Of a stretch of 51,822 nt of DNA, positions 16,838-46,524 are shown piece after piece. A model generated the notes under the pieces. The model did not search any database and had not been told where the DNA came from. It was given only the letters and a program-made list of their open reading frames with translations. Source of the stretch: Fragilaria crotonensis (Eukaryota; Bacillariophyta; Fragilariophyceae; Fragilariales; Fragilariaceae); NCBI GenBank assembly GCA_022925895.1, contig JAKSYS010000447.1, positions 1-51,822 on the forward strand, read 5' to 3'. Position numbers and translations under genes: made by a program. The number at the start of each line of letters is the position of its first letter. Position 1 is the stretch's first letter.

Positions 16838-17894
16838 CCTAAGGGGGCGGGCTTTTTTGTATATAAAATATCTTAAGATATGGTTACTTTTACTACATAC
16901 GTCGTGAGGGCCTTTTGTACGCCGGGAGGGACGGTTTTGTACGTCGAGAGGGATTTCACAGTACTGATTTCTACGTCGGAGGCTCGATTTAGTACGTCGG
17001 GAGTTACGTAACATCCCCGTAGATTTATGTACCATGTCAAGGATTGTCACAAGAGCTTTGAACTTTGAAGTATGTAAAACTTGGTATGCTCACTTTTACT
17101 TTGCTGCCCATCTTTCGACTTGTACCATTATCACATCACCATAATGAAGACCACTTGATGATTTGGTTTTCATCCTCATCAGGTTTATTTCGTTCGAAGA
17201 CCTCTTATACAACTTTCTTTGCTTTGATGTTGTCGCAACTACTATTGGTTCAGATTCAGAATTGGTCTTTTTTCAGCGAAGATACAGTATGAAATGCGAC
17301 GTTGGTCGCCATTCCAGTCATGACTGAAAACTCGAAATTCGTCGTCCTTATGGCTGTTTTCAGCCTCAGTGGGTACGTTTCGTACGAAGACCTGTTGTAC
17401 AACTTTCTTCGCCTTTTCATGTTCTCAACGTTCGTCGTTTCAGATTGAGAATCGTATGATTTTTGCTTTAGATAAAGTATGAAATGCGATGTTGGTCGTC
17501 AAAGGATGCAGTGTTGCAGATAGATTCAATAATTTGCATGTGAGTGAACTCTGCTACTCGTACCGGTTGTAGTGTGAGTAAAAGTGTGTGTATTGGACGG
17601 TATTGTTTATGATCCAACTAAATACATACGGTAGTACGGTCGTTCCGTACTAGTAGCACGTCGCATTGTTTGTTTCATTACTACTATCATAGTGTCTATG
17701 GCTTATATCGCTTCGTTGCAAAATGTAGTGCAACTCGGGTAGGAAATGTACAAAATCCGTGACGTCTTCGTTTTATGCCAGGGGATGGCAGCCTCACACA
17801 TTGAAACAAGACGATCAAAACCACATAAAAAAGTTGTGCGGACCATGATATTGTAACGACAACTTCACCACCTTATACTTCGTTACTGCCGAGC
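16838..17894 (+). mobile_element. CCTAAGG-family element a, non-coding or truncated
   Basis: It starts CCTAAGGGGGCGGGC at the cut copia integrase and continues with a TATA-like TATATAAAATATC. Five iterons of the TACGTCGGGAGG type start at 16898, 16918, 16940, 16972 and 16993 (spacing 20, 22, 32, 21). From about 17170 to 17490 it holds two tandem units of about 190 bp, each with a GT...TTTCAG intron-like segment ending at 17253 and 17443. No open frame longer than 75 codons. It ends where the next CCTAAGG begins at 17895. Confidence 0.65.
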
Positions 17895-18191
17895 CCTAAG
17901 GAGAAGGCCCTAAGGGGGCGGGCTTTTATGTCAATAAAATATCATAAGGTATGGATACTTTTATTAGATACGTCGTGAGTGATTTTTGTACGTCGGGAGG
18001 GACATTTTTGTACGTCGAGAGGGATCCCCCAGTAATTATTCCTACGTTGGACGCTCAATTTTGTACGTCGGGAGTTACGATCGATCCACGTAGAATTCGG
18101 TACTATCGAAATTGGCGCGGCCCCCGACTGACTTTATTTCACAGGCACACAAACAACACGGCTCATCCATAACAAACTCATCATTCCCATC
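17895..18191 (+). promoter_or_regulatory. Doubled CCTAAGG start and iteron leader of helicase element H1
   Basis: Two starts are juxtaposed: CCTAAGGAGAAGG at 17895, then CCTAAGGGGGCGGGC at 17909. The second leader has iterons TACGTCGKGAGK at 17969, 17989, 18011, 18043 and 18064. Its spacing of 20, 22, 32, 21 matches element a exactly. The gene's ATG is at 18192. Iteron function is inferred from repetition and conserved spacing. Confidence 0.65.
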
Positions 18192-18575
18192 ATGCCATCA
18201 TCAAGCACTCCTCCAACACAAATGGTTAACGGAAGTATCAGTCCTGTTGTTTCCGTCCGTCTTCCGGTGCAAAGCACCGAGATCAACCCCCTTGATCCTA
18301 TTCGAGAACTTTTCACTTTCTCACCATTCGGCCGTTGCTGCCGTCAATGCAATGCTCACAACAAGATTAACATGGAAGAGAGATCCATCCGCGATCACCT
18401 TAAAAAACATCACATGGACAGTAGAATGTCTACAGTCCGTTCCGTGTTGATCGAATTTACTAAAAGAGTACTCGTTGCGAAGGAATCCTGCACCATAGAG
18501 CCGTACCGTAGTGACAAAAAAAACTTATACAGGATATTCCTGCACTTGCGGTTCCGTCTTTCCGAGGAAAGATAA
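18192..18575 (+). pseudogene. H1 helicase gene: N-terminal zinc-finger region
   Basis: The frame starts with ATG 18192. At residues 44-75 it has FTFSPFGRCCRQC, then RSIRDHLKKHHMD: a CxxC followed by H...HH, a finger with a long loop. The frame breaks in an A8 run near 18519. In the next frame (18511-18710) the protein continues TYTGYSCTCGSVFPRKDNALRHC...KLCCGRY, a second Cys/His finger. Both fingers recur with the same text in element H3 (46525-46941) and H4 (39018-39377), so this is a conserved N-terminal domain, probably DNA binding. It resembles the Cys/His domain that precedes telomere-linked RecQ-type helicases in fungi. Confidence 0.6.
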
Positions 18576-18677
18576 TGCTCTTCGACATTGCAAAAATATG
18601 GGTTGCAATGAGTTGCAGCTGCAGAAAGTTGAACTCATCAAACTCTGCTGTGGTCGCTACATATCAGAAAATCAAGT

Positions 18678-19092
18678 TTGCTTGTTTTTCGAGGAGAGAC
18701 CAGCATCACACAGCAGTTTGATTATTGTGAAGCGAGAGGTGTTCTACAACCCTTTTTTCTGCAGAGAGAGAAACATGATCATACATACACTCATATGTAC
18801 ACCCCTCTTATAACCCAATGCGGTGGCGCAATGCGTTTTGCAATGAAAATTGAAAACGACTTTAAAGCCATCCATTCCCCACCAGATTCACTCAATGAGT
18901 CTATGTTGATAAAGATCCACGAGCTTGCCGAAATTTGGCTCCTGAACTTTGCCCAAATGAACATCATGATGGTCCCAGGCAATCTCCGTGCAGGATTACA
19001 AGAAACATTTGAAGGTGGAGAAGTCGATGATGTGTCACAACGCTGCACTTACGCGATGCAACATGATCCATCAACTTTATTTATTGAACTCA
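18678..19092 (+). pseudogene. H1 helicase gene: middle segment before the SINE-like insertion
   Basis: This frame continues the gene after another frame change near a T5 run at 18685. The text QQFDYCEARGVLQPFF, then LAEIWLLNFAQMNIMMVPGNLRAGLQE, has close counterparts in H3 (EQFDYCQARAALLPFL; NILMVPGNLRAGLQNF). The gene is interrupted at 19093 by a 207-bp insertion. The reading then resumes at 19300 with LIELKKLL, after a 14-bp duplication. The function of this segment is unknown. Confidence 0.6.
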
Positions 19093-19299
19093 CGTGAAAG
19101 TATGCGGCGTGCAAAAGACAGGGCTATACAAGGTGTACGATCATTGCATTCTTATTTTCCGTCCATGTCTTAGGCGTTACGGCGTAAGAGAGCGTGTTAC
19201 TTGACAGTATTCGCACAGGATACTGTTGAGTCGTGTGAGTCGATTCTTCTTGTCTGTGAGGATAGCGGCAGCACGTAAAAAGATTTTAGGTTTTTTTTA
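19093..19299 (+). mobile_element. Short SINE-like retroposon inside H1
   Basis: The 207-bp insertion is flanked by the perfect 14-bp duplication ATTTATTGAACTCA (19079-19092 and 19300-19313). It ends with GCGGCAGCACGTAAAAAGAT, TTTAGG and a T run, the tail shared with 827-905 and 30508-30578. It has no coding capacity. A GTCGATTC motif about 70 bp from the end resembles part of a pol III B box. A target duplication of this length with a homopolymer tail fits target-primed reverse transcription by a LINE partner. Confidence 0.75.
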
Positions 19300-19313
19300 A
19301 TTTATTGAACTCA

Positions 19314-21046
19314 AGAAGCTCTTATCTTTTGCATACCGACGAGGCCTTTTCGTCGCCAAACCTTTGGACCACCAAGATGCATTTTCAATCCCATACTTTT
19401 TGAAGGATCTGATGCTTGAAATCCCATCGTCAGTCCAATATCATCCCCTAGCCGTTGAGTTCTGCTTGATGTCGGGATTCCGTGTTCAAAAGGCAGATTC
19501 CAAAATCAAAATGATCTCATGCGACACTGTTTCCTCTGTTATTGCAAAGGTAGCATCAGTCTTGAAAGCTGCAATTTGTTCAGTTATAGTATGCTCATTC
19601 TCAGAAGACACTTTCACGATACACGGTCCCGCACTTATCACAACAGTACGAAAATCTCACGTTCTCCATAGTCTGTCACCGATGCTCCGTCAAATTCGCG
19701 AAATGCACCGTCGACTACCCAAACGGAGGAAAACAACACTCGATGAAACTGGAAACATTGTGGTAGATCAGTTTTCGTTTCTTTTTGACGACTGGTCCAA
19801 AATTGTTCCTAAGACTGTGCTCTTGATGAAGGTTGCGGTTTCAAATTTGGCAGATGGGATCTGGTGGGAGCCTGTGGTTGATGTTCTTACCGATATAAAT
19901 GTTCACGCGGATCGTGACACGGGTGACCTTTTTCTAGCAGATGTGAGTCCCGTGTGGAAACAAGGTTCTCTTTTTCCAATGGATCATTTTGACCATTTCA
20001 TGGCACTTTTAGAAATGTCTTTCCACGGTTTCGGCGGGGGCTCTGCTCGGTTGAACGAGCTTCGTGAACCTACAATGTTCAACTGCCTCTTCACAAACAG
20101 TACGGTGTACTACACACTGTCTTCCTTGAAAGGTTTCAACAGCTCATCACGACGCACTAGTAAGGAAATCGAACGCAAGCTACCACCCGTTATCTCCAGA
20201 TACTTCCTATTGTTTCGATCTCTGATCCAAACAAAAGCAAGTATGTTCACCAGCAACAGCAACATTAACAATCTCATGTTCCCTACAAGGGCGAATCCTT
20301 CTGCCATCCGACCGTCACACATCATCCGAGATCTCTTTTCGCTATCGTCAATTCCAAACATGACACAAGTTCGACACTTTTGGGCTGGTGTTTCCAACTT
20401 CGTGACCGGTGGTCACGACAAGCCCAACCACTTTTTGTCGTCGAATTCCATGGGAGCTTCCAAAATGGGTCATTCTTCATCAACTCATTCCTTTGCCTAC
20501 TCCAGCCAGCAAGTCGGTTCAGAAGAGGCACACTTCAACTCCTATCATTTTGCAATTGGTGACACCTCGTATCAAATATCCAAATTCACCGAAAGACTTT
20601 CCTTGGCAGACCTTCGCAATGCAGTGCGACTTCGGTTTCCAAATTTGGTAAGTCCGAGTAATGGTCACGACCACTATTTGTGTGTGCAGCAAAAAGAGTT
20701 GGTTGAGTTTGGGTACAGTGCCGAGTTCAAGAACAAGCCACAGCATTGCATTGCTCTACTCGCTCCAGGTGAGGGAAAGTCGGAGTCCTATATAATTCCA
20801 ACTATCGCTCGAAACCTTGCCAACCATAAATCAAAGACAATCATCCACATTTCACCATTTCGATTCTTGGCTGGGTATCAGTTTGCAATGGCATCAGCGG
20901 CATTCGAGATGCGTAATGGTCACGACCATTATTTGTCTGTGCAGCAGAAAGAGTTGGTTGAGTTCGGGTACAGTGCCGAGTTCAACAACAAGCCACAGCA
21001 TTGCATTGCTCTACTCGCTCCAGGTGAGGGAAAGTCGGAGTCCTAA
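19314..21046 (+). pseudogene. H1 helicase gene: middle and start of helicase domain
   Basis: Open from the insertion to 21046; a first ATG is at 19364. The long middle part (YFLKDLMLEIPSSV..., FGGGSARLNELREPTMF, SSLKGFNSSSRR) matches H3 but no family I can name. The helicase domain begins with VQQKELVEFGYSAEF (Q-motif-like), LLAPGEGKSESYIIPT (Walker A) and IIHISPFRFLAG (motif Ia). The Walker A region is then repeated in frame (20915-21046). The stop TAA is supplied by the next element's CCTAAGG. Motifs II-VI are absent, so no active helicase can come from this copy. Confidence 0.7.
20660..21046 (+). repeat. In-frame tandem duplication of the Walker A region
   Basis: The segments 20660-20792 and 20915-21046 are near-identical and offset by 255 bp (85 codons), so the frame is kept. 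Both encode QQKELVEFGYSAEF and LLAPGEGKSES. Differences are a handful of substitutions. Confidence 0.85.
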
Positions 21047-21394
21047 GGAGAAGGGGCTGTTTCTAGATAAAAAGTCTTCAAGTATGAATGCTTTTACTTG
21101 ATACCACTGGTGGTGTTTTTATTTAGGATCACATACCACCGGTGTAGATTTTCGTACCACTGGTGGGCCTTTTTAACTAGCAATATATACCACTGTTGGT
21201 ACCGAGCTCCATACTACCAATGCACTGTGAACAATCCTGGTAATGCTTTTTTATGTAGACAATTTTTCAAAAAACGAGTGAGTATTCCATTGGGACTCGC
21301 CATGCAAAAAATCTATCACACCCCATCATCATCATGTCTGCAAAAACAAATGCAACTATTGAGGTTGAACCAGTAATGCTTTTCACTTTCTCTC
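21042..21394 (+). promoter_or_regulatory. CCTAAGG-family 5' fragment c with TACCACTGGTGG iterons
   Basis: It starts CCTAAGGAGAAGGGGCTG, with TAGATAAAAAG as a TATA-like box. Iterons TACCACYGKTGK start at 21102, 21134, 21155 and 21188 (spacing 32, 21, 33). An ATG at 21333 opens SAKTNATIEVEP-type coding identical in kind to H3, but the copy is cut after TTCACTTTCTCT, where element d begins. It is about 353 bp long. Confidence 0.7.
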
Positions 21395-22476
21395 CCTAAG
21401 GGGGCGGGCTGATTTCTATATAAAATTATTTCGGGGATAGATTTTTTTACTTGATACATCCGGTGGGATATTACTATGGGGAAACTTGCATCGGGTGTGT
21501 CTTTTTCAGCATTGGGTGGTACAATTACAAAGGAAGGGGTTACATCGGGTGGTACAGAGCTTTGCCCATAGAGGTCAGTATGTTGCCGTCATCATGTCAT
21601 CAGCAGCACAAACATACATTGCGGCACCATAATCATCCACAACAAATGAGTTCTTGAATTGGTAAGTTTTGTTTAAGCGTCTGCTTATAAACATTCTTTG
21701 CAGTGGCTGCAACGCTCTCAATAATGCTCGTTTCAGATTTGTAATTGGAGCATATTTAAGTTAAGAAACGGTCGGAAGTATGAAATTGGTCGCCATTCTT
21801 CACGTCTTAACAACGACCGAAAACTCCCAGATCCGGCTTGCAAATCGTTGTTTCCTTCGTCACCTGGTAAGTCTCGTTTCAAAGTCTTCTACTAACTAGT
21901 ATTCTTCGTATTGTAATGTACTCAAAAACGCTCGCTTCAGATTTGTAATTGAGTGACTGGGTGTCATGAAATTCATACTCCAACCACGACCGAAGATTTG
22001 GTTTCCGGTTCGCAAATCGTTGTTTCGTTTCAAAGTCTTCTACAAACTATTCTTTGTATTGTAATGTGCTCAAAAACGCTCGTTTCAGATTCGCAATTGA
22101 GTAAATTTTAGAAAAGTAATGGTTGGAAATGCGAAGTTGGGTGTCATGAAATTCATGCTCCAACCCCAACCGAAAATTTGGTTTCCGGTTCGCAAATCGT
22201 TGTATCTTTTGTCACCTGGTGCATCTCCTTTAAAAGTCTTTTACTTAACATTCTTTGTATTGTTTTATGATCACCAGCGCTTGTTTTAGATTTTTAATTG
22301 AGTAATCTCTAGCAAAGTTATGGTCGGAAATGCAATGAGGAGCATTGTTGGAGGTTCCGATTGTAGTAACATGCCGTGGCATCTCATACAAGTGAGTAAA
22401 AAAAATTCAGTACCGGTAGATAATCGGATAGTTAACTTTCTTACTGAATTAAGTCAAAAACCACTGAATTCAGTTA
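21395..22476 (+). mobile_element. CCTAAGG-family element d, leader plus tandem intron-like units
   Basis: It starts CCTAAGGGGGCGGGCTG with TATATAAAATTA as the TATA-like box. Iterons TACATCNGGTGG start at 21455, 21487, 21508 and 21541 (spacing 32, 21, 33). From 21655 to 22300 lie about four tandem units of about 200 bp. The clearest contains GTAAGT (21867), CTAAC and a TTCAG end (21940), which looks like a 74-nt intron. No long frame. Same plan as element a. Confidence 0.6.
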
Positions 22477-22735
22477 CCTAAGGAGAAGGGGCTGTTTCTA
22501 GATAAAAAGTCCTCAAGTATGAATGCCTGGTGGTACCGAGTTCCATACGACCAATGCAGTGTGAACAATCCTGGCAATGCTTTCCATTGGACTTGCTGTA
22601 TAAAAATCTATCTCACCCCATCCTCATCATGTTTACAAAAACAAATGCAATTGTTCTTGTGGATCACCCACCAGAGTTTGAACCGGTAACGCTTTTCACT
22701 TTCTCTCCCTAAGGCAAAGGGGTTCGAACTGGTTA
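22049..22735 (+). repeat. 687-bp segment duplicated at 30579-30669 plus 37921-38517
   Basis: The segment covers the end of element d, leader e and the first 28 bp of leader f. A direct copy lies immediately right of the poly(T)-tailed element that begins at 22736, and that copy is split by the copia element. I see about one indel (an extra T near 38022) between the copies, so the duplication is recent. Confidence 0.85.
22477..22735 (+). promoter_or_regulatory. CCTAAGG-family 5' fragments e and f
   Basis: Fragment e (22477-22707) has the CCTAAGGAGAAGGGG start and TAGATAAAAAG box but has lost most of its iterons: TGGTGGTACC near 22527 remains. Its ATG is at 22628 (FTKTNAIVLVDHPPEFEPV) and it stops at TTCACTTTCTCT, the same cut point as fragment c. 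Fragment f begins CCTAAGGCAAAGGGG at 22708 and is cut at 22735 by the poly(T)-tailed element. Confidence 0.65.
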
Positions 22736-23090
22736 TAAATTTACTCGTATCGTTTCTACGTACATAAGAGCACATCTAAAAGGATGAACGAAGGGTTTCC
22801 AGAACTCTTTCGTATCGACTCGACCATTGCCAACGGGACTTTATACTCCCACAATGATGCCAAAACAAACACAACAAAGAATGAGCGGAAGGGAGGCGCA
22901 AAAACTCATCGGTTGGATGGTGAATTTTCACCATCATCGTTCAATTCCTACACACTCTCATGGTATTCTCTCTACACAGTTGATCCACCCATTGTTGCAG
23001 CGAAATGTTCAGGAGTGAACGATACTGTGCACCTACCTACTACTGGTACCGTGAATGTACCTACCATGAGCAGCCTTCCTACCGTGCACC
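22736..23090 (+). repeat. Poly(T)-tailed repeat element X, left part
   Basis: This left part of an element of about 940 bp ends in the first units of the CCTACCGTG-type minisatellite (23030-23090), where a tyrosine-recombinase retroelement has inserted. The remainder is 29994-30578. The frame 22784-23245 (MNEGFPELFRIDSTIANG) is open across it but has no recognised motif. Confidence 0.6.
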
Positions 23091-23247
23091 TGGCATGTCC
23101 GAAGATCGGGAAAGGACGGGCAGTCGCCATCAGACAGACGAACACGAGACACAGACAGACGAACACCACGACACAACACAACACAAGATACGAATTGCTC
23201 ACAATCCGAACGAACTCGAATCGACAAAGACACTACTCTAGTTAATC
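23091..23247 (+). repeat. Split direct repeat A1
   Basis: Nearly identical to A2 (29453-29607), from TGGCATGTCCGAAGATCG to CTCTAGTTAATC. The only difference I see is a 2-bp length change in GGGAAAGG versus GAAAGG. Confidence 0.88.
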
Positions 23248-23284
23248 TGGCCTCTCCCCCGACCCGACTTGAACCACAGACGCA

Positions 23285-28366: not shown

Positions 28367-28508
28367 AACGTTACGCCGACGAGGACCCAGGACCTACCCC
28401 ACAGCAGGCGCTGCCGTTAGAGGTGATTCAAAGGTTCGATCCTGGGCAAGAAACGAGACGGACATCGCTATTGGACAACTTGTGGTGGTCGCGTTCTTTT
28501 CGCCATGA
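28047..28508 (+). pseudogene. Tyrosine recombinase, N-terminal core-binding part
   Basis: From about 28112 this frame continues the recombinase (SEGAFLQGLGREAKAETFACFAAALRDGRL, then ETDIAIGQLVVVAFF) and stops in SP* at 28508. The next frame starts MRSCEYS, the box I region with the first catalytic Arg. The two frames are separated by a single base in a short T run (TTCTTTTCGCC). Confidence 0.7.
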
Positions 28509-29260
28509 GGTCGTGCGAATATTCCGATGTCGGAAGCCGACGGACGACATCAGTGATCAGAGTGGACGACGTTCGTTTCCGACAGAAGGGACAGGACCTG
28601 CAGACAACCGACCGAGGACAACTGGAGAATGCCGACACCGTGTCGATCACCTTCCGGCGACAAAAGAACGGGGACAAAGGCGCGACAGTGACTCAGCATC
28701 GAAACGACAGGCAGGGACAAACGGACATCTGCCCCGTCCGCGTGCTAGCGGACCTGACGACGAGGGTACGGAGTTACGATTGCCATTCACGGACGAACCC
28801 GAAGATTAACGCCGTCAGGACGCAGGACTCAGACGAACCCCAACACATCTCTTCCAAGTCCATACTGAGGCAGCTCAGGATGGCGACGACTCTCGCAGGG
28901 GAGGAGAGGCTTGGCCTCCAGGCGAGTGGCATCGGCACTCACTCGATCAGATCAGGCGCCGCGATGGCCATGCACCTCGCCGGAGTTCCAAGTGAGACGA
29001 TTCAGATGGTGGGGAGGTGGCGAAGCCAGACGTTCATGAGATACCTCCGAATTCAAGTGCCGGACTCGACACTCGGAGTAGCCGCACGCATGACGAGTCG
29101 ACAATCTTTCTACACGATCGCCCCAGATTCTGCGGACGAACGACAACCGGAAAATGGCGGAAACCAGGTCGACTCACAATCGCGCGACGGACCCCCGCTA
29201 GATAACTATCACGGGACCGACACCGCGAGACGAACCAGGAGAGAGAGACAAAACTATTAG
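28505..29260 (+). CDS. Tyrosine recombinase catalytic domain
   Basis: This domain would integrate the circular cDNA. The catalytic set is visible: R in AMRSCEYS (box I), H-x-x-R in GTHSIRSGAAMAMHLAG (box II), and GRWRSQTFMRYLRI with the likely nucleophile Tyr. The C terminus (about 70 residues) is polar and overlaps repeat B1. The frame is intact over 251 codons, but its N-terminal part is in another frame. Copies of its 3' end occur at 29696-29760 (repeat B2) and, deleted, at 39420-39738. Confidence 0.85.
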   Translation: MRSCEYSDVGSRRTTSVIRVDDVRFRQKGQDLQTTDRGQLENADTVSITFRRQKNGDKGATVTQHRNDRQGQTDICPVRVLADLTTRVRSYDCHSRTNPKINAVRTQDSDEPQHISSKSILRQLRMATTLAGEERLGLQASGIGTHSIRSGAAMAMHLAGVPSETIQMVGRWRSQTFMRYLRIQVPDSTLGVAARMTSRQSFYTIAPDSADERQPENGGNQVDSQSRDGPPLDNYHGTDTARRTRRERQNY

Positions 29261-29993: not shown

Positions 29994-30578
29994 ACCTACT
30001 GCGAACCTGCCTACCGTGACCCTGCCTACCGTGACCCTGCCTACCGTGACCCTGCCTACCGTGACCCTGCCTACCGTGACACTGCCTACCGTGACCCGGC
30101 CTACCGTAACCCTGCCTACCGTAACCCTGCCTACCATGAACCCAACCATCCAGTATGAGTACTCCAAGTACACCCTTGTTCAGCAATGTGACTACCCTCC
30201 TATTCAGTATTGCAAGTACACACCTTTCCAGTACTCCACCAAGAACACACCTACCCCTATTCAGTACTCAAAGTACACCCATATCCAGTACTCCGAGTGC
30301 AACCCTGTCCAACACTCCAAGTGCTACACGAACCCACCTCCCAGCATGAACAAGCATATGTTTTTCCATGAGCAGTATTGTTTGGAACCCTTCTTTCCTC
30401 ATTTTAGCCATCCTCCCTACATCACATTGGGATAGTTCTCATCTTCAGTGGCACCTCCCAGGTGCCTTTTTCTCTGTTGGCCGTGCTCCCTCGGGGGTCG
30501 TGTCTAACCGTGTGGGTCGAGTGTCTCCAATCATAGGCACCGCGGCAGCACATAAAATAGATGTTAGGTTTTTTTTTT
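29994..30578 (+). repeat. Poly(T)-tailed repeat element X, right part
   Basis: Begins with 15-bp minisatellite units (CCTACCGTGACCCTG, about nine copies to 30137). A second degenerate series built on CAGTACTCCAAGTACACC follows (30150-30325). FFPHFSHPPY coding-like text near 30395-30425 matches element copy 1. It ends with the family tail GCGGCAGCACATAAAATAG and a T run to 30578. The frame 30016-30435 is open across it, probably because the unit length is a multiple of three. Confidence 0.7.
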
Positions 30579-30669
30579 ATTCTTTGTATTGTAATGTGCT
30601 CAAAAACGCTCGTTTCAGATTCGCAATTGAGTAAATTTTAGAAAAGTAATGGTTGGAAATGCGAAGTTG
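30579..30669 (+). repeat. Second copy of the 687-bp segment, left part
   Basis: Matches 22049-22139. It ends in AGTTG (30665-30669), the 5-bp duplication made by the copia insertion. The copy resumes at 37921. Confidence 0.9.
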
Positions 30670-31084
30670 TGTGAGACCCTCTCTAGTACGGCAGATCCAC
30701 AAACCTTGACCCGCTTGGGAGTCGGGTTAGTGCGGAACCGACGGGAACAGAAGAGAGGGAACACGACAACACAATGAACAAGAGCGTGGCGATGTTGAGA
30801 GGTGCGCGTCGCAAAGGGGTCGATGTCGGTGATGGTGATGTCGTGTGTCGTTGGCGTGGACGAAGCAATAACTGTACCTCTTCACCCTTACGATCGTAGA
30901 CCGGCAAGAATGCAGTGGAGGTAATAGTTTTAAGCTAAGTTAGAAGTTGTGTGCCGATGAAGTACACCGGCTTAAACTATACTAGTCGGAGTGGCGCGTC
31001 ATACAAGACACGACCATAGATGGTATACTGTGCGCAGTTGAACAATAGCACAGTATCCAAGAATGTAGGAGATATGCACTGACA
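30670..31084 (-). repeat. Copia 3' LTR
   Basis: Begins TGTGAGACCC and ends TGCACTGACA on the plus strand. Identical by eye to 37501-37915. The 74-codon frame inside it occurs in both LTRs and is not a gene. Confidence 0.95.
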
Positions 31085-31096: not shown

Positions 31097-31149
31097 GTAA
31101 GCCGAGGCATGCAATGAGCAACAGAAGTGCATCTTGATAGAGAAGAACA

Positions 31150-37477: not shown

Positions 37478-37488
37478 TCGTAGACTTT

Positions 37489-37500: not shown

Positions 37501-37915
37501 TGTGAGACCCTCTCTAGTACGGCAGATCCACAAACCTTGACCCGCTTGGGAGTCGGGTTAGTGCGGAACCGACGGGAACAGAAGAGAGGGAACACGACAA
37601 CACAATGAACAAGAGCGTGGCGATGTTGAGAGGTGCGCGTCGCAAAGGGGTCGATGTCGGTGATGGTGATGTCGTGTGTCGTTGGCGTGGACGAAGCAAT
37701 AACTGTACCTCTTCACCCTTACGATCGTAGACCGGCAAGAATGCAGTGGAGGTAATAGTTTTAAGCTAAGTTAGAAGTTGTGTGCCGATGAAGTACACCG
37801 GCTTAAACTATACTAGTCGGAGTGGCGCGTCATACAAGACACGACCATAGATGGTATACTGTGCGCAGTTGAACAATAGCACAGTATCCAAGAATGTAGG
37901 AGATATGCACTGACA
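37501..37915 (-). repeat. Copia 5' LTR
   Basis: Identical by eye to 30670-31084. Followed on the plus strand by the second AGTTG (37916-37920). Confidence 0.95.
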
Positions 37916-37920
37916 AGTTG

Positions 37921-38517
37921 GGTGTCATGAAATTCATGCTCCAACCCCAACCGAAAATTTGGTTTCCGGTTCGCAAATCGTTGTATCTTTTGTCACCTGG
38001 TGCATCTCCTTTAAAAGTCTTTTTACTTAACATTCTTTGTATTGTTTTATGATCACCAGCGCTTGTTTTAGATTTTTAATTGAGTAATCTCTAGCAAAGT
38101 TATGGTCGGAAATGCAATGAGGAGCATTGTTGGAGGTTCCGATTGTAGTAACATGCCGTGGCATCTCATACAAGTGAGTAAAAAAAATTCAGTACCGGTA
38201 GATAATCGGATAGTTAACTTTCTTACTGAATTAAGTCAAAAACCACTGAATTCAGTTACCTAAGGAGAAGGGGCTGTTTCTAGATAAAAAGTCCTCAAGT
38301 ATGAATGCCTGGTGGTACCGAGTTCCATACGACCAATGCAGTGTGAACAATCCTGGCAATGCTTTCCATTGGACTTGCTGTATAAAAATCTATCTCACCC
38401 CATCCTCATCATGTTTACAAAAACAAATGCAATTGTTCTTGTGGATCACCCACCAGAGTTTGAACCGGTAACGCTTTTCACTTTCTCTCCCTAAGGCAAA
38501 GGGGTTCGAACTGGTTA
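37921..38517 (+). repeat. Second copy of the 687-bp segment, right part
   Basis: Matches 22140-22735, including CCTAAGG fragment e (here 38259-38489) and the first 28 bp of fragment f (here 38490-38517). One extra T near 38022 is the only difference I noticed. Confidence 0.9.
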
Positions 38518-38699
38518 AAAAATCCTCATGTATACTTTTACTTCATACGCCCGGAGTGGTGATTTCACGCCCGGAGGGGGATTTTTCATGCCCGGAGGGA
38601 TATTTTACTTAGGAATTACTACGTCCGGAGGAGAATTACTCGCCATACGGAGACAATATTACACGTAGTTACATGGTATTGTCAGAATGTTTTTGCAGC
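38490..38699 (+). promoter_or_regulatory. CCTAAGG-family 5' fragment h with TACGCCCGGAGG iterons
   Basis: It starts CCTAAGGCAAAGGGGTTCG, then GGTTAAAAAATCC. Iterons YACGYCCGGAGK start at 38546, 38566, 38587 and 38620 (spacing 20, 21, 33), with a degenerate TACGGAGAC near 38646. It is cut at 38700 by the next element. Its first 28 bp equal fragment f at 22708. Confidence 0.65.
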
Positions 38700-39017
38700 C
38701 CTTAGGGGGCGGAGTTCAAACTACATTTATTTTATTTGTGAATGATTTTGTTTACTTGATACCACGGGAGGGACTTCTATTTAGGAAGATGTACCACAGG
38801 AGGGATTTTCCTTGCCATGGGAAGGACTTTTACTTAAGGACTAATACCATGGGAGGTATGGAATTCATCACACTCTCTATCGCCCTTGTAGTGTGAAAAT
38901 CAGTGCGCCAATTTTCAAATGAAAGCCATATCATTCATCCCTCAACTCCATTCTCAACAACCACAACAAACCATGGACTTTAATGTGTCTCAGACGACAA
39001 GCACCAAATGAAAGGCA
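38700..39017 (+). promoter_or_regulatory. CCTWAGG-family leader i of helicase element H4
   Basis: It starts CCTTAGGGGGCGGAG. Iterons TACCAYRGGAGG start at 38760, 38792, 38813 and 38845 (spacing 32, 21, 32). An ATG at 38971 opens a short frame with an in-frame TGA; the next in-frame ATG (39018) gives the zinc-finger protein. Confidence 0.65.
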
Positions 39018-39377
39018 ATGGTCCTTCAAGACATTCCACAAGAGGATTCAGACCCCATGCTTCCTATTAGGGATCTTTTCACATTTTCTCCTTTTGGTTT
39101 ATGCTGTCGGCAATGTAAAAATAATTCAATTATTCAGCGTGATGAGCAATGCATCTCCCGGCATTAAAAAAACATGGTATGGCCAGCAGAGTTGCTTTGG
39201 TTTGTGCAACTTGAAATTGCAAAGGCCTCAGGATCCACTGAATCATACCGAAGCGACAAGAATACCTACACTGGTTATTCCTGTAGTTGTGGGATTGTTT
39301 TTCAATTAAGAATAGACAACGCACTTCGACATTGCAAAAGAATGGGTTGTGACGCATCCAAACTGCAAAAACTTCGA
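39018..39377 (+). pseudogene. H4 zinc-finger N terminus of the helicase gene family
   Basis: Translation gives VLQDIPQEDSDP, then LFTFSPFGLCCRQCKNN and CISRH, where a TAA interrupts. Later in the same frame NTYTGYSCSCGIVFQL, then DNALRHCKRMGCDASKLQK. The region between the fingers is shorter than in H1 and H3, so it carries an internal deletion as well as the stop. The gene is then cut at 39378 by a DIRS-derived insertion, and no helicase part follows on the other side. It shows that the two-finger N terminus is a family feature. Confidence 0.6.
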
Positions 39378-39900
39378 AATAAATTCCGAGTCTTGTCCAA
39401 ATTTCTACACGCAGTGGTTCCCCGGGAAAGAGAACAAGGTGGCAGACATGCACCTCGCCGGAGTTCCAAGTGAGACGATTCAGATGGTGGGGAGGTGGCG
39501 AAGCCAGACGTTCATGAGATACCTCAGAATTCAAGTGCCAGACTCGACACTCGGAGTAGCCGCACGCATGACGAGTCGACAATCTTTCTATACAATCGCC
39601 CCAGATTCTGCGGACGAACGACAACCGGAAAATGGCGGAAACCAGGTCGACTCACAATCGCGCGACGGACCCCCGCTAGATAACTATCACGGGACCGACA
39701 CCGCGAGACGAACCAGGAGAGAGAGACAAAACTATTAGGACCAGATTCCGATGCCATCTATTTATTTCTACTAGTCTCACGAGCACAAAAGAGAAACGAG
39801 AATGACCACAGACAACACACGAATCGACGCGACAGTGCGCGAGACAACGGTACGATGAAACCACAAAGAAGACGACTCATCCGACTCGGAATTTATTTCG
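39378..39900 (+). mobile_element. Internally deleted DIRS derivative with inverted ends
   Basis: The right part (about 39455-39900) follows 28974-29452 of the full element with few changes. Before it are 44 bp from the RNase H gene (27846-27889: ACGCAGTGGTTCCCCGGG). The left end (39378-39409) is an inverted copy of the element's right terminus (29421-29452). The two ends thus form an inverted repeat of at least 18 bp beginning CGAAATAAATTCCGAGTC. It is probably non-autonomous. The fused frame 39349-39738 is a by-product. Confidence 0.8.
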
Positions 39901-40059
39901 ATGCCTGTTGCTTGTCCCCAGCAGCAGGTACTTGTACTGTGCTGTTGATATGTGAGCAAGAAAAGTTGCTCCTGTATGATAGTCTGCATTGCATAATGTA
40001 CAATGTGCAAAGTACTCCGAATTGATCTTCAGACGTGCTCCAAGTACTTATGCATGAAT
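39901..40059. other. Short spacer beyond the DIRS derivative
   Basis: No gene. The expected remainder of H4 does not resume here, so H4 was truncated before or during the insertion at 39378. Confidence 0.5.
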
Positions 40060-41487
40060 TCAAACTGCTATGTGGTAGACTAAACGCCGCTCGCCGCCTG
40101 CAAGTTTTTTCTCGTGCCGCATCCTCAGTGCTGTGTTAGCTCCTTTCGATGCCCTCAGCTTCTTGATGTGCGCTTCCAAAGCCTGACCAGATTTCATGCG
40201 TTCCTCTTCACTAGCATACACTTCAGGGATTTGCGAGGAAAGAATGCCTCTTCCCTTCGCCCTCCACGTATCAACTACTTGAGAAGCAATAAAGTCTCCA
40301 AAAGCGCTATCCCCACGCACGACTGCATCACATTGCTTTGCAATCTCGAAGGTCCCAAGAATCGCAATCACCTCATCTTTGGGTGTAGGCTCCGTAACAT
40401 GACGCATAAATTCTGCTTCTGTACCTCGACTTCGCGTCCGGTTGATCCAGTGCCAATTGATATGCGAATGGAATTCCCGCGCTTCGTCAATCGCGTTGGC
40501 GTCGTCCGTCAACAAAAATATATTGGACCCCGGTTGGCGGCGTTCCTTTGGGAGCTGATTGAGGTAATCAGATATTGGGTGATAGCCTCGAAATCGTGTA
40601 AACCTTTTTTTTTGAAGAATGACATCACCTCGTCGCACGTGCATCACAGTGCAGGATGCATTTGACGGAAACGGTGGCCTTTGATCGTCCACAAAATTCA
40701 CAACAGCTCGACGAATCCATTGCTGGCCCCGACTAAGGTATTGATACACCCACGGCCATTCTTTCACGTCACGCCGATGCACTGCCTTGTTACCTTGAAA
40801 TGCACGCGAATGATTGACCTTGCATTTTGTAATTGGGAGAAAGTAGCAATTGAGGTCTTTTGAGGCGCAAGTCGCGTTGGAGCCATCCCTTGCAGCAGCA
40901 TATTGCCACACCTGCTTTTCGTTGCCAGGGTTGCATTGTACAATCATTGGCTTTTGTTCCGCTAGGGCAGTTAACAAACCTTTCCCCAAAGCATTGAAAT
41001 CCGCACCCCATCCTGAGCTTATCAAGTTCTGCGGGAGCACCGTATCGCATTCTGTAGGAAACTGATTCCTATGCACTTTTCGTAGAAAATCCAACTTCTC
41101 TGGGTTGACTTCCAATTCGAAGCATTGATGTGTCGAATTTTGGTGCCCAATGACAAAATCAGGATGATGCGTCCACCATTCGTCAATATCGAACGTATCC
41201 GTATCCACGTCCCACCCCAAACAAAATCGATCGATACTGGCGTTCCGGATCTGCGAGATGACAATGCTTGCTGCGGCGTCGGCCGCTAGGGGCGACACTC
41301 CACTGGTGGATGATGTGAACCACCGTGGACTCTTGACACGATTAACCCGTGTTACTGCGTCTGGTCTCATTTGCACGTTCACGTTCCTAACCAGCTGCAT
41401 CATGGCCAGCATCACGGCGAACACTGATAAAATCGAGATGGCTACTTTGATAGGCCTGCATTTCGTCGCCCGCATCTTGAATGGCAT
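40060..41487 (-). CDS. GT23/FUT8-like fucosyltransferase, type II membrane protein
   Basis: The gene is a single intact frame. I chose ATG 41487 (MPFKMRATK) because the longer frame to 41568 starts with TTG. The protein is 475 residues: a short cytosolic tail, a membrane anchor (IKVAISILSVFAVMLAMM, about residues 12-32) and a luminal catalytic part. The nucleotide-sugar motif CTVMHVRRGDVILQKKRF...GYHPISDYL matches HVRRTD...HPIEEYM of alpha-1,6-fucosyltransferases. It is followed by NIFLLTDDANAIDEA and CDAVVRGDSAFGDFIASQ, where family members have the acceptor-side and Ser/Asp block. It should transfer fucose from GDP-fucose in the Golgi; the acceptor is not predictable. NST, NAT, NHS, NAS and NRT sequons support a luminal location. 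Confidence 0.78.
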   Translation of the reverse strand: MPFKMRATKCRPIKVAISILSVFAVMLAMMQLVRNVNVQMRPDAVTRVNRVKSPRWFTSSTSGVSPLAADAAASIVISQIRNASIDRFCLGWDVDTDTFDIDEWWTHHPDFVIGHQNSTHQCFELEVNPEKLDFLRKVHRNQFPTECDTVLPQNLISSGWGADFNALGKGLLTALAEQKPMIVQCNPGNEKQVWQYAAARDGSNATCASKDLNCYFLPITKCKVNHSRAFQGNKAVHRRDVKEWPWVYQYLSRGQQWIRRAVVNFVDDQRPPFPSNASCTVMHVRRGDVILQKKRFTRFRGYHPISDYLNQLPKERRQPGSNIFLLTDDANAIDEAREFHSHINWHWINRTRSRGTEAEFMRHVTEPTPKDEVIAILGTFEIAKQCDAVVRGDSAFGDFIASQVVDTWRAKGRGILSSQIPEVYASEEERMKSGQALEAHIKKLRASKGANTALRMRHEKKLAGGERRLVYHIAV

Positions 41488-41568
41488 CCTTTCACATTCA
41501 CAATTCACAGGCCACAAACTACCGGTACCAGGGTATTTTTGGATAAATAGGGCTATGGGTCTGTCCAA

Positions 41569-42600
41569 TGGGGGAATTCGATTTTGTTGTGAGTTGTGAC
41601 GTTGTGACCGCCAAACCGCTGACTATGGCTGGATGCATATTTTGGGTACACGAGGTAGCTCTACGTAGGCCTAGTATTAATTTTTTTATTTCCGACGTCA
41701 AAAGTATACCAAGGTTACGGTACAGCTACTGAATTGGTGATTCTAATCGGGTTGTCAGTGCAGCTTTTGTTCATCTAGCCGAAATAGACCCCAACTGTGG
41801 CAATGAAGAAGTAGCTAGTCTAGTCGATGTACAATATAATGTTCGAGAGTTTCAGAACCCGCGACGTGAGCGCCAGCGTGACGAGATCTGCACCAACAAA
41901 GCAAGGTAATGGCAACAAGATGGTGAGCAGTCATGAGTCATGACCAGGAGGAATGAGCCCACAGTCGAACACCAAGAAAGGGTATGCTGAAATCAAAGTG
42001 ATTCCATCTCATCCGCCATGCTCTTGATTGCCCGGCTTGTTGGATAAATATAGTGAGGTCTGCTTTAAAGAAAGCAGCATTATGATTGTACGCAACATGA
42101 TTGCAGGCGACCGCACCCAACAAAATACATCCGAGATGTGCCATAGTAGCATATTCGTTCAAATTTCTTGGCAGGGTGAGGCAGCCACTCAGAAAGTAGC
42201 ATTTGATCTTTCAATCAACACCAATCAATTTGAAGTTGTTGACAATTAGGTTTGTATTGGGCAGCAGGATTGTGTAGTTCATGCCAATCTTGTATGAGAT
42301 ATCTTGGCTGGTCATTGACATATCCTGACAAATCGAATACTGGCCAAGAAGTCCGGTTATTCAAATTGATATTGACATATATCAGCCAATTCTGTCTCTC
42401 CCGATTCATGAACTTGAATGGGCAGAGAATTGGCAACTTCTGGATAGGTTTTACAGCAAAATCTCGAAACTTGCGCACCACCGCCGTGTCGGGTGACAAA
42501 TGCAAGTGAAGGGCTCCCAGCGTCAAGAAGTTCCTCACACGCGGTGTCCATGACTCGAGTCCTGCAGGATGATGATGGGTGATTCCTTATCTCTTAGCAG
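41569..42600. other. Intergenic region, no supported gene
   Basis: A minus-strand frame at 42215-42538 (FRDFAVKPIQKLPILCPFKF...SWPVFDLSGYVNDQPRYLI) reads like protein but has no motif, and a second frame (42357-42551) competes. It could be a decayed gene. The rest, including the promoter side of the fucosyltransferase gene, shows nothing. Confidence 0.4.
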
Positions 42601-42639
42601 TGACAACAGATCACGAGATGCCGTGATGCATTGATCCAG

Positions 42640-43383
42640 CGATGGAACCAGGATTGGGCTCTAGTAGCCAAAACGTTTGGAGCTGCTTGCTAGCACCATC
42701 AAGGAGCACACCAACAACAGAGGCTTCATCGGTGACAGTATCAAATTCATCTTCCCTGTTAGTCTGCTATGACCTTCATCTGTATCCAGGCAATGCATGC
42801 CCAACTCATGGCACTTCACATGTCACGTCGTGAGAGCAAGCCATCGGTCGACACATCGACAGCCAACAAATTGATCCAACGTCTGGGAGCAAAAGTTCCG
42901 AGGAGTGACATTCTGTGAGCCTCTTCCGTCCTTATTTTGAAAGGAAAAAGTAGGAATGGTGAAAATGCTTCCAAGAATGTTCCAAACGGAGTTCACCACG
43001 TGTTCGCCTCGGGTGGGGATGCTCTAAGGGTTCGAATCTGGATCCATCCCAAGATCCACTGTCATCGTCATCATGGTTCGTGACATTTGGTATGACTGAC
43101 ACCAACACTCAATTGGGCAACATGCTGGTAACTGTTCTCTTCATCAGACAACGTTTCTGGAATCACAAGAGAAGAAGGTGCTCCCTTTACTGCCATCTCC
43201 TGGCGCGTGATCAGTAGAAATTGGAATGGTCGTGAATTTATCAAAACTGCGTTTTCTGTGGAGCTTCAATGTGCTTTCACTCATGAAGAGCAAGGAGATG
43301 ATGTAGCTTCAAGAAGCTCCACGGAATATCAAGAATTGGTTGAGATATTCACTGCCATGGTCAATGGAATGAAAAGCAAGTGA
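42640..43383 (+). pseudogene. Possible decayed gene, plus strand
   Basis: Short protein-like stretches follow one another in changing frames: AMHAQLMALHMSRRESKPS (about 42792), KNVPNGVHHVFASGGDALRV (about 42979), and the open stretch 43131-43383, which has no ATG (NVSGITREEGAPFTAISWRV...EYQELVEIFTAMVNGMKSK). A GTAACT near 43130 could be a 5' splice site, so an intron-containing gene is an alternative. I recognise no family. Confidence 0.25.
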
Positions 43384-43491
43384 TTTGGCGTGTAAATCAA
43401 TTTTCAATATGCGAGCGCTAAAAAAATAGTGGTACTAGTACGTAGAGCTCTACCTCGCGAATCCTCTTCGTGAATCCAGCCATACAGGGCA

Positions 43492-43777
43492 CCTAAGGAG
43501 AAGGAGCCGTTTCTATATAAAAAGTCTTCAAGTATTAATGCTGTTACTTGATACTACTGGTGGTGTTTTTATTTATTAGGATCACATACCACCGGCAGTG
43601 TTGATTTTTGTACCACTGGTGGGCCTTTTTAATTTGCAATATATACCACTGGTGGTACCGAGCTCCATACTACCAATGCAGTGTGAACAATCCTGGTAAT
43701 GCTTTTTTATGTAGACATTTTTTCAAAAAAAGAGGGAGTATTCCATTGGACTTGCCATGCAAAAAATCTATCACATC
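43492..43777 (+). promoter_or_regulatory. CCTAAGG-family 5' fragment j
   Basis: It starts CCTAAGGAGAAGGAGCCG and has TATATAAAAAG. Iterons TACYACYGGTGG start at 43552, 43587, 43611 and 43644; two short insertions shift the usual spacing to 35, 24, 33. It is cut at ATCTATCACAT, before the ATG, by the next element at 43778. Confidence 0.65.
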
Positions 43778-43960
43778 CCTAAGGAAAAGGGGTTCAAAGT
43801 AGATAAAAAATCCTCAAGTATATATATTTTTACTTGAGGCCTCCGGAGCAATTTTATTTAGAGATTTTAGCTCCGGAGCCAATTTTGAACCTCCGGAGCT
43901 GACTGTTTACTTAATGAAATGTGCATTCGGAGCTACACAGGGAGGCACAGAGCTCATCGT
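43778..43960 (+). promoter_or_regulatory. CCTAAGG-family 5' leader k with CCTCCGGAGC iterons
   Basis: It starts CCTAAGGAAAAGGGGTTC and has AGATAAAAAATCC. Iterons with the palindrome CTCCGGAG start at 43840, 43870 and 43890, plus ATTCGGAGC near 43924 (spacing 30, 20, 34). No helicase coding follows; the sequence passes into the TGCTGAC minisatellite. Confidence 0.65.
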
Positions 43961-44097
43961 GTGTAGTTTTCTGGAAGGTCCGGCAATACACGCTTAGTCG
44001 TGAATCAAGGTCGAATTCACGCTGGCCGGAGGCGAACATCATTTCCGTTCTGTGTCTGGCTGGTGCTAAACTGGTTATGCCAGCGTCATCGTCGTTT

Positions 44098-44363
44098 TGC
44101 TGACACTTGCTGACGAAAAGACAGATCTGCTGACATCCGCTGACAAAAAACGAATTTGCTGACGTCTGCTGACGAAATTCGAATCTGCTGACATTTTCTG
44201 ACATATGATGACGAAAACGAGTTTTTTCCAGTACAAAAGCTACGGTGATGCTGACATCTTCTGACGTTTGCTGACGAGAATCAAGTTTGCTGACATTTGC
44301 TGACGAAAAGCAAAGCTGCTGACATTTGCTGACGAAAAAGAAATCTGCTGACATTTGCTGAAC
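44098..44363. repeat. Degenerate minisatellite, TGCTGACATTTGCTGACGAA
   Basis: About eight units of 28-30 bp, each with two or three CTGAC words, are interrupted by an irregular unit near 44195-44250. The units vary too much in length and spacing to be a CRISPR array. The minus-strand frame 43911-44354 is an open repeat, not a gene. Confidence 0.8.
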
Positions 44364-44647
44364 CTTGCCAGCTCGAATGATACGACAAAGATCCTAACAA
44401 GCTCTCATCACGCCGGCCGGTCATTGGCTGGCGCGCACATCCTTAAGGTAAATCTGTTAATCGCGAAACGTGCTTGGGCCGGACCTTCCTGGTAATAACT
44501 TCTTGCGTAGCCACTTTTCCACCAAAGAAGTGGAGTATGACATCCAGTAATCTAAATACGTACAGTGTCATACCGCTGTAACGTACAATACTGTAGTTTT
44601 TAAACGAAATACAGTTGATTCATCATACTGTTGTCTGCATTTGTCAC
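44364..44647. other. Spacer, no gene seen
   Basis: Nothing recognisable apart from ATACAGT/TACTGTAT-type short motifs near 44565-44635. Confidence 0.5.
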
Positions 44648-44679
44648 ATACAAGTACCTACTAGTACAAGTACCTACTA

Positions 44680-45043
44680 CCGTATTTCACGGAGATTTGT
44701 ACCCCGCGCATTCCTGTACCCACCCCTCCCAAAATTATGCACATTTTCGAACCACTCGACTCAAAAATGAACGTCCATTTGTTATCCTTTGGCAGAAAAA
44801 TCCTGGCATTTCACCGAAACGTCAGGTCATTTGAATTCCACTCGATGAAAGCTAGTTATGCATGTATAACTCTAATGATCAGAAGACGAGTTTAAATATT
44901 CATTTTCCTTTTTTTCCGTAGTCAGCCCGACATAAATTTTTCACGGATTCCCTTTATCCATCTGACATTTTCGATGAAAATTTGGTGGGATTCCGGAACC
45001 CCTCGATGAACATTTGGTCGGTACAAATCTCCGTGAAATACGG
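44680..45043. mobile_element. MITE with 24-bp terminal inverted repeats and TA target duplication
   Basis: The 364-bp element starts CCGTATTTCACGGAGATTTG (44680) and ends with the exact complement (45020-45043). TA flanks both sides (44678-44679, 45044-45045). Removing it and one TA restores CCTACTAGTACAAG, the unit of the tandem array it sits in. It has no coding capacity. A TA duplication points to mobilisation by a Tc1/mariner-type transposase. Confidence 0.9.
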
Positions 45044-45368
45044 TAGTACAAGTACCTACTAGTACAAGTACCTACTAGTACAAGTACCTACTAGTACAAG
45101 TACCTACTAGTACAAGTACCTACTAGTACAAGTACCTACTAGTACAAGTACCTACTAGTACAAGTACCTACTAGTACAAGTACCTACTAGTACAAGTACC
45201 TACTAGTACAAGTACCTACTAGTACAAGTACCTACTAGTACAAGTACCTACTAGTACAAGTACCTACTAGTACAAGTACCTACTAGTACAAGTACCTACT
45301 AGTACAAGTACCTACTAGTACAAGTACCTACTAGTACAAGTACCTACTAGTACAAGTACCTACTAGTA
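45044..45368. repeat. 16-bp tandem array, TAGTACAAGTACCTAC, about 20 copies
   Basis: Perfect or near-perfect head-to-tail copies without spacers. Two more units lie left of the MITE (44648-44679). No spacers, so not a CRISPR. Confidence 0.95.
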
Positions 45369-45497
45369 AAAAAACTAGAATTCAAATTAACGTGCTATCG
45401 CTACGCCCAATACGAGAAGACGTTCGACCCGCACGGATAGGCACTGTACTGGAGTATACAGTAGCTATCGTCGCTTGTTCAACCTGAGAAGCCACCT

Positions 45498-46233
45498 CTA
45501 GCGCACCCCAAAGTAGTCTCGAATCGACCTCATACCAGTAGTCGCTCTCCGCTTAACTTGGCGATAGCTCTCGCGAAAGATCGGGGCATTCATTGCCAAC
45601 CAATTCTGAGTAACCCACAAGGAATGCTGTTCATGTTCCGTCGCATCAGCGTGTAATAACTTCTGAACATGTGTTTCATAAAGTGTGCGGTGTCGGTATA
45701 TCTCCGAGAGTTGTCGCCTCACCCTCGCGAGTAGTTGTCTCCAGCCTGGTACGTTCTGCCATGTCCGTGCACTTCGATTCCTTTGTTTCCACAACTTATA
45801 CCACTGTTTCCACAAAGTAAAATCACGCTCGCTTGCCATGTTGAACTTTGCCCTGCCGTCGTTTCTTTGCCGTGTTGAGTCAAATGATATTGTCGCTGTT
45901 GAGATTCCCAAGCCGCACTAAACCGCCTGAGTAGTACTTGTGCCCATCCGATCTTGTTTTGTTGAAGAACAATTTCGCAATGTAGGGTGATACCATCTGG
46001 ACAAAGGATGATGTCGTTGTCGGAAGAATCAAACCATTGACGCAACCCATCCAGCATTAATTCACACAGCATCGGTGATGTATTCGAGTGAATGAAGGAG
46101 TCTCGGAGTCGCGCCAGGAGCTGTGTCCGCCATTCGCCACGAGTGCTGTGCTGACATCGGATGATGTGAAAATAATCCTCGTCGAGGGAACCGCACATCG
46201 CGCACTTACGATTCCCCCCGTCGAATTTGTTTG
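45498..46233 (-). pseudogene. Retroelement protein C-terminal fragment with CxxC...HxxxxC finger
   Basis: Two frames make up one protein. The first (45719-46233, open at its left end) gives NRKCAMCGSLDEDYFHIIRC, a CX2C...HX4C group, then QQNKIGWAQVLLRRFSAAWE. The second (45498-45840) gives FTLWKQWYKLWKQRNRSART, then EHEQHSLWVTQNWLAMNAPI. The change of frame is near 45820. The finger recalls the zf-RVT region after LINE-type reverse transcriptases, and the overall pattern resembles a protein common in diatom retroelements. The upstream part is cut off exactly by the CCTAAGG start at 46234. Confidence 0.5.
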
Positions 46234-46524
46234 CCTAAGGAGAAGGCCCTGTTTCTAGATAAAAAGTCTTCAAGTATGAATGCTTTTACTTGATACCACT
46301 GGTGGTGTTTTTATTTAGGATCACATACCACCGGTGTAGATTTTTGTACCACTGGTGGGCCTTTTTAACTAGCAATATATACCACTGGTGGTACCGAGCT
46401 CCATACTACCAATGCACTGTGAACAATCCTGGTAATGCTTTTTTATGTAGACAATTTTTCAAAAAAAGAGTGAGTATTCCATTGGACTCGCCATGCAAAA
46501 AATCTATCACACCCCATCATCATC
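46234..46524 (+). promoter_or_regulatory. CCTAAGG start and iteron leader of helicase element H3
   Basis: Starts CCTAAGGAGAAGGCCCTG with TAGATAAAAAG. Iterons TACCACYGGTGK start at 46294, 46326, 46347 and 46380 (spacing 32, 21, 33), followed by a degenerate TACTACCAATGC. About 130 bp further on, CATCATCATCATG gives the ATG at 46525. This is the intact version of the leader in fragments c, e and j. Confidence 0.72.

Follow-up and report, generated by a model that had tools for sequence, protein, structure and literature searches.

The stretch of DNA analysed here (the window) covers the entire contig C389 (51,822 bases) of the diatom Fragilaria crotonensis, whose genome comprises 62.1 Mb in 881 contigs. 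It harbours a family of units that start with CCTWAGG, followed by a leader with an array of short repeats and by a gene encoding two zinc fingers (ZF1 and ZF2, together the ZF domain), a middle domain and a helicase in one protein. CCTWAGG is present at all 13 window coordinates for which the first-pass annotation had listed it (shuffled sequence: mean 3.2, with 13 reached in 0/100); the list thus holds, while the total of twelve given with it is wrong. The leaders with an array number nine (16838, 17909, 21042, 21395, 38490, 38700, 43492, 43778, 46234) and not eight, and the repeat words named there are present in the sequence. The motif is its own reverse complement and by itself gives no direction; read from the sequence after the motif, all window leaders have plus orientation. 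A TATA-like box was noticed by eye in the leaders at about +25.

All features listed in the following are on the plus strand unless stated otherwise. The first leader (16838-17007, type F3) carries five repeats (word TACGTCGGGAGG) at +61, +81, +103, +135 and +156 and is joined to a cut-off Copia-like open reading frame (ORF). At 17895-17908, only a stub of 14 bp remains of an F1-type start (CCTAAGGAGAAGGC), which is truncated by another F3 leader with array (17909-18078). The F3 gene (18192-21041) encodes ZF1, ZF2, the middle domain and the helicase start in a broken frame and ends at GGAGT/CC (the slash marks the join); an open stretch (19301-21043) falls within its region. It is followed by an F1 leader (21042-21394, word TACCACTGGTGG), truncated directly ahead of its own ZF1 at CTCTC/CC, and by an F2 leader (word TACATCGGGTGG) with the sequence after it (21395-22476). 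An array-less F1 leader and a cut-off F4-type start at 22708 (together 22477-22739) recur at 38259-38521, i.e., 22477/22708 and 38259/38490 are a single pair copied by a 607-bp duplication (99.7% identity). The second copy of the F1 leader (38259-38489) leads into an F4-type leader (38490-38699, word TACGCCCGGAGG, repeats at +57, +77, +98 and +131) and an F9 leader with a CCTTAGG start (38700-39374, word TACCACGGGAGG), which includes a ZF remnant (39075-39374). Further on, the array spacing of an F1 leader (43492-43777) is shifted through small insertions; this leader is truncated at CACATC/CC ahead of an F6 leader (43778-43950, word GGCCTCCGGAGC). The last leader (46234-46588, F1) has an intact array at +61, +93, +114 and +147 and belongs with the F1 gene (46526-50054), which encodes a ZF domain (46561-46938), the middle domain and a superfamily 2 (SF2) helicase in broken frames.

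Beyond this gene, the unit holds a distal ORF on the minus strand (50967-51803, 279 aa) with no Pfam family at E-values up to 1. Its DNA is found 92-99% identical over the full length at nine other places, each time in the element orientation of the respective contig. The same region has relatives of 66-75% identity in many contigs without ZF matches, which suggests that the units may carry captured host genes.

Genome-wide, we fetched 67 sequence stretches in addition to the window. The leader pattern yielded 87 candidates in this set; after removal of 7 doubled starts or artefacts, 80 leaders from 41 stretches and the window remained. The genome contains at least 94 ZF-domain matches and at least 61 places with exact CCTAAGGGGGCGG, and 41/881 contigs show element matches. 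That is, the arrays are no accident of this locus.

The array geometry was assessed in two ways. De novo word finding detects at least four near-copies of one 10-mer in 51 of the 60 leaders that passed an ungapped redundancy filter, compared to 14/300 base-shuffled leaders. In addition, we used a template (TACNNCNGGNGN) that leaves repeat positions 4, 5, 7, 10 and 12 free. Of the 80 leaders, 76 score at least 44 with it, and 67 of these have their first repeat at exactly +61; among leaders scoring at least 50, 197/198 repeat spacings fall into two classes (19-22 and 30-34). Since the template looked at most 5 bases from the expected repeat places, it is the de novo positions that provide independent evidence for the geometry. 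Two types of arrays are observed, i.e., class I at about +61, 92, 113 and 146 and class II at +61, 81, 103, 135 and sometimes 156. At the variable positions, repeats of one array show a similarity of 0.71, compared to 0.36 for repeats occupying the corresponding place in different word groups (17 representatives). Thus, the place is kept while the word changes jointly within an array, as had been proposed from the window alone. We also considered helical phasing of the repeats: two and three turns fit (resultant 0.79 for 10.5 bp), but periods of 11 and 12 bp do equally well or better (0.84 and 0.87), such that we make no claim of phasing.

A near-complete linked ZF domain is available for 46/80 leaders. 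They form 18 clusters, from which we left out four with a broken finger; the remaining 14 subfamilies have both fingers intact and carry 11 different words at positions 4-12. For these, we computed the normalised mutual information (MI) between repeat positions and 91 variable ZF columns, with permutation p-values for the maximum over columns. Repeat position 10 finds its best partner in ZF2 +3 (MI 1.0, next column 0.37, p=0.0042), position 12 in ZF2 +2 (MI 0.84, p=0.0002) and position 4 in ZF1 +6 (MI 0.72, p=0.0006). On the level of residues, Asn at ZF2 +3 goes with A10 and Ser with T10 in 14/14 subfamilies, Asp at ZF2 +2 with G12 in all 8 subfamilies that have Asp, and at ZF1 +6 Arg goes with C4, Asp/Glu with G4 and Ile/Asn with A4, again in 14/14.

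ZF2 follows the pattern CXC-12-HX5C; its helix reads, for example, RKDNALR. The consulted parts of a review on C2H2 fingers (PMC12264921) state that residues +6, +3 and -1 read the 5', central and 3' base, respectively, while +2 contacts the next base pair on the other strand, and that Arg/Lys prefer G, Asn prefers A and Asp prefers C. The repeat reads G(A/T)G followed by position 12, and ZF2 agrees with the canonical code, placing R (Q once) at +6, N/S at +3, R/K at -1 and D/G/A at +2 against G-A/T-G-N. ZF1 has 15 instead of 12 residues between Cys and His and shows a clear code fit at +6 only; the pattern with position 4 would fit an opposite-strand reading.

On a tree built without the contact residues, we count 3 and 3 changes for position 10 and its partner +3, 6 and 7 for position 4 and +6, and 3 and 3 for position 12 and +2. 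These repeated paired changes imply that the pairing is not one old split. A further case is given by F7 and F8, which differ in leader and ZF1: from about base 450 on, their DNA is 94-100% identical per 50-column block (except for one block of 32% and a final stub), whereas ahead of it identity is 44-92%. Their words differ at positions 4-6 and have GGAGC at positions 8-12 in common, with position 7 being mixed in F7. By this pattern, F7 and F8 represent a natural swap of leader plus ZF1.

In summary, the repeat words vary together with the linked gene's finger residues, as the first-pass annotation had anticipated, and do so at canonical contact positions and with the reviewed base preferences; leaders of one ZF cluster share their word, so unrelated words within a subfamily, which would have contradicted it, did not occur. 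The covariation supports that each subfamily's protein recognises its own leader, with binding predicted from sequence. We consider this predicted finger-to-array pairing well supported and the firmest part of our analysis.

The remainder of the protein was studied on an intact copy of 1240 aa (L004:2874-6593). It matches Pfam DEAD (2.6e-9) and Helicase_C (5e-5), while NCBIfam yields only weak helicase matches for the unit's helicase (best cas3_core, 1e-5, far under its cut-off). No Pfam match at E-values up to 1 was found in this protein for the OrsD domain (reported for Ustilago UTASb), nor for a reverse transcriptase or known transposase; for the reverse transcriptase, the distal ORFs were scanned in part. 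By eye, motifs resembling those of tyrosine recombinases can be made out in the middle domain, in the expected order (R..EL, K, ..QxR, GHS...TH..AY). The identification as a tyrosine recombinase finds no support in the profile searches: six members of the domain have no Pfam match at an E-value of 10, its profile has no PDB match at an E-value of 10, the genome has 62 PF00589 matches, all of them clear of the ZF and helicase matches, and hhalign against four tyrosine recombinases and one alignment of them gives probabilities of 0.07-0.29%, which do not exceed those of seven controls (0.04-0.35%). We therefore keep the similarity as a motif resemblance only. An AlphaFold model of the window's own 450 aa, made from the single sequence without relatives, was uninformative (predicted local distance difference test score, pLDDT, of 30) and left unused. 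No relatives were confirmed in viral contigs.

With regard to genomic place, a search with perfect (CCCTAA)3 had no match in the genome, because the telomere is a mix of TTAGGG and TTAGGGG. One contig (C592) ends in about 470 bp of such repeats after about 2.2 kb of 52-bp repeats; this end is shared with C84 at 99%, and C783 shares 5.2 kb ahead of the 52-bp repeats. The telomere pattern built from the C592 end, the sole variant searched besides (CCCTAA)3, has 29 matches in four contigs (C23, C490, C592, C754). All four carry elements with the helicase side toward the telomere (chance given 41/881: 4e-6). In three of them, the sequence runs from the last leader to the telomere without gap or further CCTWAGG (C490 10.2 kb, C592 13.7 kb, C754 10.4 kb). 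Mixed orientation is found in 0/31 contigs with multiple matches (196 matches), and loci with the 5' (ZF) part are more frequent (66-72) than those with the 3' helicase end (30-33). We regard the subtelomeric polarity of the units as well supported.

We next turn to the joins, i.e., the transitions from older sequence into CCTAAGG. The base before the motif is C at 36/66 distinct joins. Of 79 distinct joins with at least 100 bp of flank, 33 have an uninterrupted homologue when only the upstream flank is used as query; removing a self-match (L011) and two duplicates (L010, L043) leaves 30 distinct empty sites. CC is found at the join in 25/30 of them (background 5.1%), such that 2-3 bp are common to target and unit end. 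Joining at CC(T), as deduced from these comparisons, is well supported. To what extent the displaced half persists was assessed in three sufficiently complete contigs with 19 starts. Five lack an intact homologue and four were dropped (two because their homologue was the very same leader shifted by one base, one for its tandem-repeat target, one for having only 36 bp of homology), leaving 10 evaluable joins. A separate downstream continuation of the displaced sequence is seen in 0/10: three joins have no near-identical match other than the single F1 body at 46588, itself continuous with its own leader; for L003 5199, this match is to the body that belongs to the next element; the remaining ones show no match or weaker ones (73-84% identity, or short, about 45 bp). 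A 3' terminus of the unit was not found at the ends examined.

Some further observations concern the surroundings of joins. A helicase segment of 133 bp occurs twice, 96% identical, just ahead of the 21042 join (20658-20790 and 20913-21045), as if a join-bearing fragment had been added to a second break. One or two of the 14-bp stubs CCTAAGGAGAAGGC are stacked ahead of a leader in L036, L034 and at window position 17895, as if re-joining had immediately taken place on the CCCT of the F1 start. A 16-bp repeat (TAGTACAAGTACCTAC) has about 20 perfect copies at 45044-45368 and 44649-44679, and leaders elsewhere (L003, L020, L025) join inside it. The joins at 21395 and 38490 lie at the same base of the element's coding sequence, which we do not claim as special.

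Beside the units, about 690 bp of the array region (22048-22739; 30578-30673 plus 37915-38521) are directly repeated around a 7.8-kb DIRS-like stretch with a tyrosine-recombinase ORF (28427-29257). The second copy is interrupted by a Copia-like element whose two 415-bp ends are identical (30670-31084, 37501-37915). A gene on the minus strand (5772-7187) matches glycosyltransferase WbsX (Pfam, 1.3e-36).

Our sequence evidence thus covers the unit anatomy, the location and orientation of the units near telomeres, the exact joining of their 5' end at CC(T), the absence of displaced sequence where testable, and the match of fingers and words. We think it probable that these are self-addressed chromosome-end units that move by end replacement. 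Such a unit consists of CCTAAGG, a TATA-like box and an array of four or five predicted binding sites from +61, followed by one gene (two zinc fingers, middle domain, DEAD-like SF2 helicase) and subfamily-specific distal sequence up to the telomere. The encoded protein would bind its own array as an ordered multimer and bring the helicase, and perhaps a recombinase, to CCTAAGG. The donor unit would then be copied or exchanged onto CC(T) of another chromosome end, with everything distal being replaced. Repeated rounds would leave chains of cut-off leaders as in the window, and joint divergence of finger and word would keep the subfamilies separately addressed. End replacement by the unit's own protein appears to be the best reading. 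The recognition of each leader by the protein of its own subfamily, which the first-pass annotation proposed in analogy to plasmid iterons and transposon end arrays, is supported by the finger-array match; the subtelomeric place, the CC(T) target and the replacement of older units, which are truncated instead of being nested in, were not foreseen there.

Several observations weigh against this reading. Repeat position 5 has no clear partner among the 91 ZF columns (p=0.62), and neither has position 7 (p=0.045), whose best column, eight positions ahead of the ZF2 His, is counted as an additional contact in the consulted parts of the C2H2 review (PMC12264921). The subfamilies lack independence from one another, and support in the tree (0.68-0.96) is low in places. 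No CC is present at 5/30 empty sites (L004 7872, L018 1737, L019 1172, L020 1205, L023 165), and any of three F1 joins in the window could in principle be the one to which its F1 body (46588 on) belongs. Within C23, two leaders are followed distally by other sequence, and it is this sequence that the telomere repeats cap. The 3' side faces the nearer contig end in only 23/33 contigs of known length (p=0.018), and one helicase fragment (L058, C12:1600-3200) faces inward from the left end of its 308-kb contig. Finally, a single genome was analysed. As a side note, C841 shares 98.7% of its sequence at the L058 region.

Among the alternatives, the arrays could be operators only, i.e., the protein would control the promoter of its own gene, with passive spread of the units via ordinary telomere recombination or break-induced replication. 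The TATA-like box and the array lie between join and ATG, around the presumed start, which fits operators. Furthermore, fungal chromosome ends are repaired by recombination with other ends, as far as covered by the consulted parts of PMC8381367, and beyond the gene the ends of C592, C84 and C783 are 98-99% identical over long stretches. Homologous exchange, however, leaves unexplained why unrelated sequence is joined at exactly the same unit base (66 distinct joins) and why CC is found at 25/30 targets; we thus deem this account unlikely. A Crypton-like DNA transposon would interpret the middle domain as a diverged tyrosine recombinase, with a circle integrated at CC(T) and older copies later deleted downstream. 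Here, the motif order seen by eye, the 2-3 bp of target/end identity (which would fit a short crossover) and a CryptonS reported from a diatom (PMC3212892, consulted in part) stand against the uniformly negative Pfam, PDB profile, PF00589 overlap and hhalign results, an uninformative single-sequence fold, and the fact that neither a 3' terminus nor a remainder was found. This leaves it less likely still.

A third alternative is nested insertions of an ordinary transposon that prefers sense landing in its own kind, where a directional target yields the uniform orientation. Some joins (21395, 38490) hit coding sequence of the element itself at one and the same base, as such a preference would produce, but a separate downstream remainder is seen in 0/10 evaluable joins, and a join is also found in a Copia-like ORF (16838), yet the polarity within contigs never flips. 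Nesting is consequently very improbable. Returning to end replacement by the unit's own protein, we tentatively raise, while rather doubting it, that the units represent a novel class of mobile DNA. Only one end of such DNA would be defined by sequence, the telomere serving as the second; it would move only by chromosome-end replacement under the direction of the zinc-finger/helicase protein it encodes, and would have radiated into at least 11 finger-and-array addresses via point change and finger swapping.

If end replacement is true, DNA would spread here without known transposase or reverse transcriptase. The 14 finger pairs and 11 words, one finger swap included, form a natural evolution experiment on the zinc-finger code. 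The units also suggest that chromosome-end helicase genes of distant eukaryotes may be parts of mobile units that build and overwrite subtelomeres rather than mere passengers. Literature searches for diatom subtelomeric helicase units (none evident from titles and abstract openings) and for a subtelomeric transposon with RecQ, zinc finger and tyrosine recombinase together (no match) left most subscription papers outside their coverage.

Known systems share individual features with the units. In CACTA (En/Spm) elements, TNPA binds subterminal repeats, which resembles the recognition, predicted here, of an end-proximal array with repeats of about 12 bp by an element-encoded protein. In contrast to CACTA, no array is present at the other side in the three units examined (F7, F1 and F11 words with at most one mismatch cluster in the leader only, with one single inverted F7 match elsewhere), the 5' end is different, and the one intact protein scanned shows no DDE transposase match. 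Crypton/CryptonS elements have in common the possible tyrosine-recombinase-like motifs and a very short common sequence at the join (CC(T), on the 5' side), but here no second terminus was found and the recombinase profile tests are negative. Telomeric retrotransposons (MoTeR, FoTeR, HeT-A) are likewise specific to chromosome ends and form chains of truncated copies. However, the gene of our units has no reverse transcriptase match, and the units attach by their 5' end with 3' loss, i.e., with opposite polarity; the attachment of HeT-A is the reverse of it.

Fungal telomere-linked helicase (TLH) genes are a chromosome-end helicase family with full and truncated copies, as described in the consulted parts of PMC12857005 and PMC10532341. 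Here as well, a helicase gene family lies next to telomeres, namely in 4/4 telomere contigs. The portions of these accounts that we compared mention neither a CC(T)-joined 5' end nor a finger-matched array. Furthermore, OrsD was not found in our units, whose helicase matches DEAD/Helicase_C with RecQ membership not confirmed. The Y' elements of budding yeast are subtelomeric repeat units, amplified through recombination at chromosome ends. They are also mentioned in the consulted part of PMC10532341. While the units described here are subtelomeric repeat units as well, they differ from Y' elements in that they join at one exact base, at CC(T) in unrelated DNA, and come with their own predicted DNA-binding fingers.

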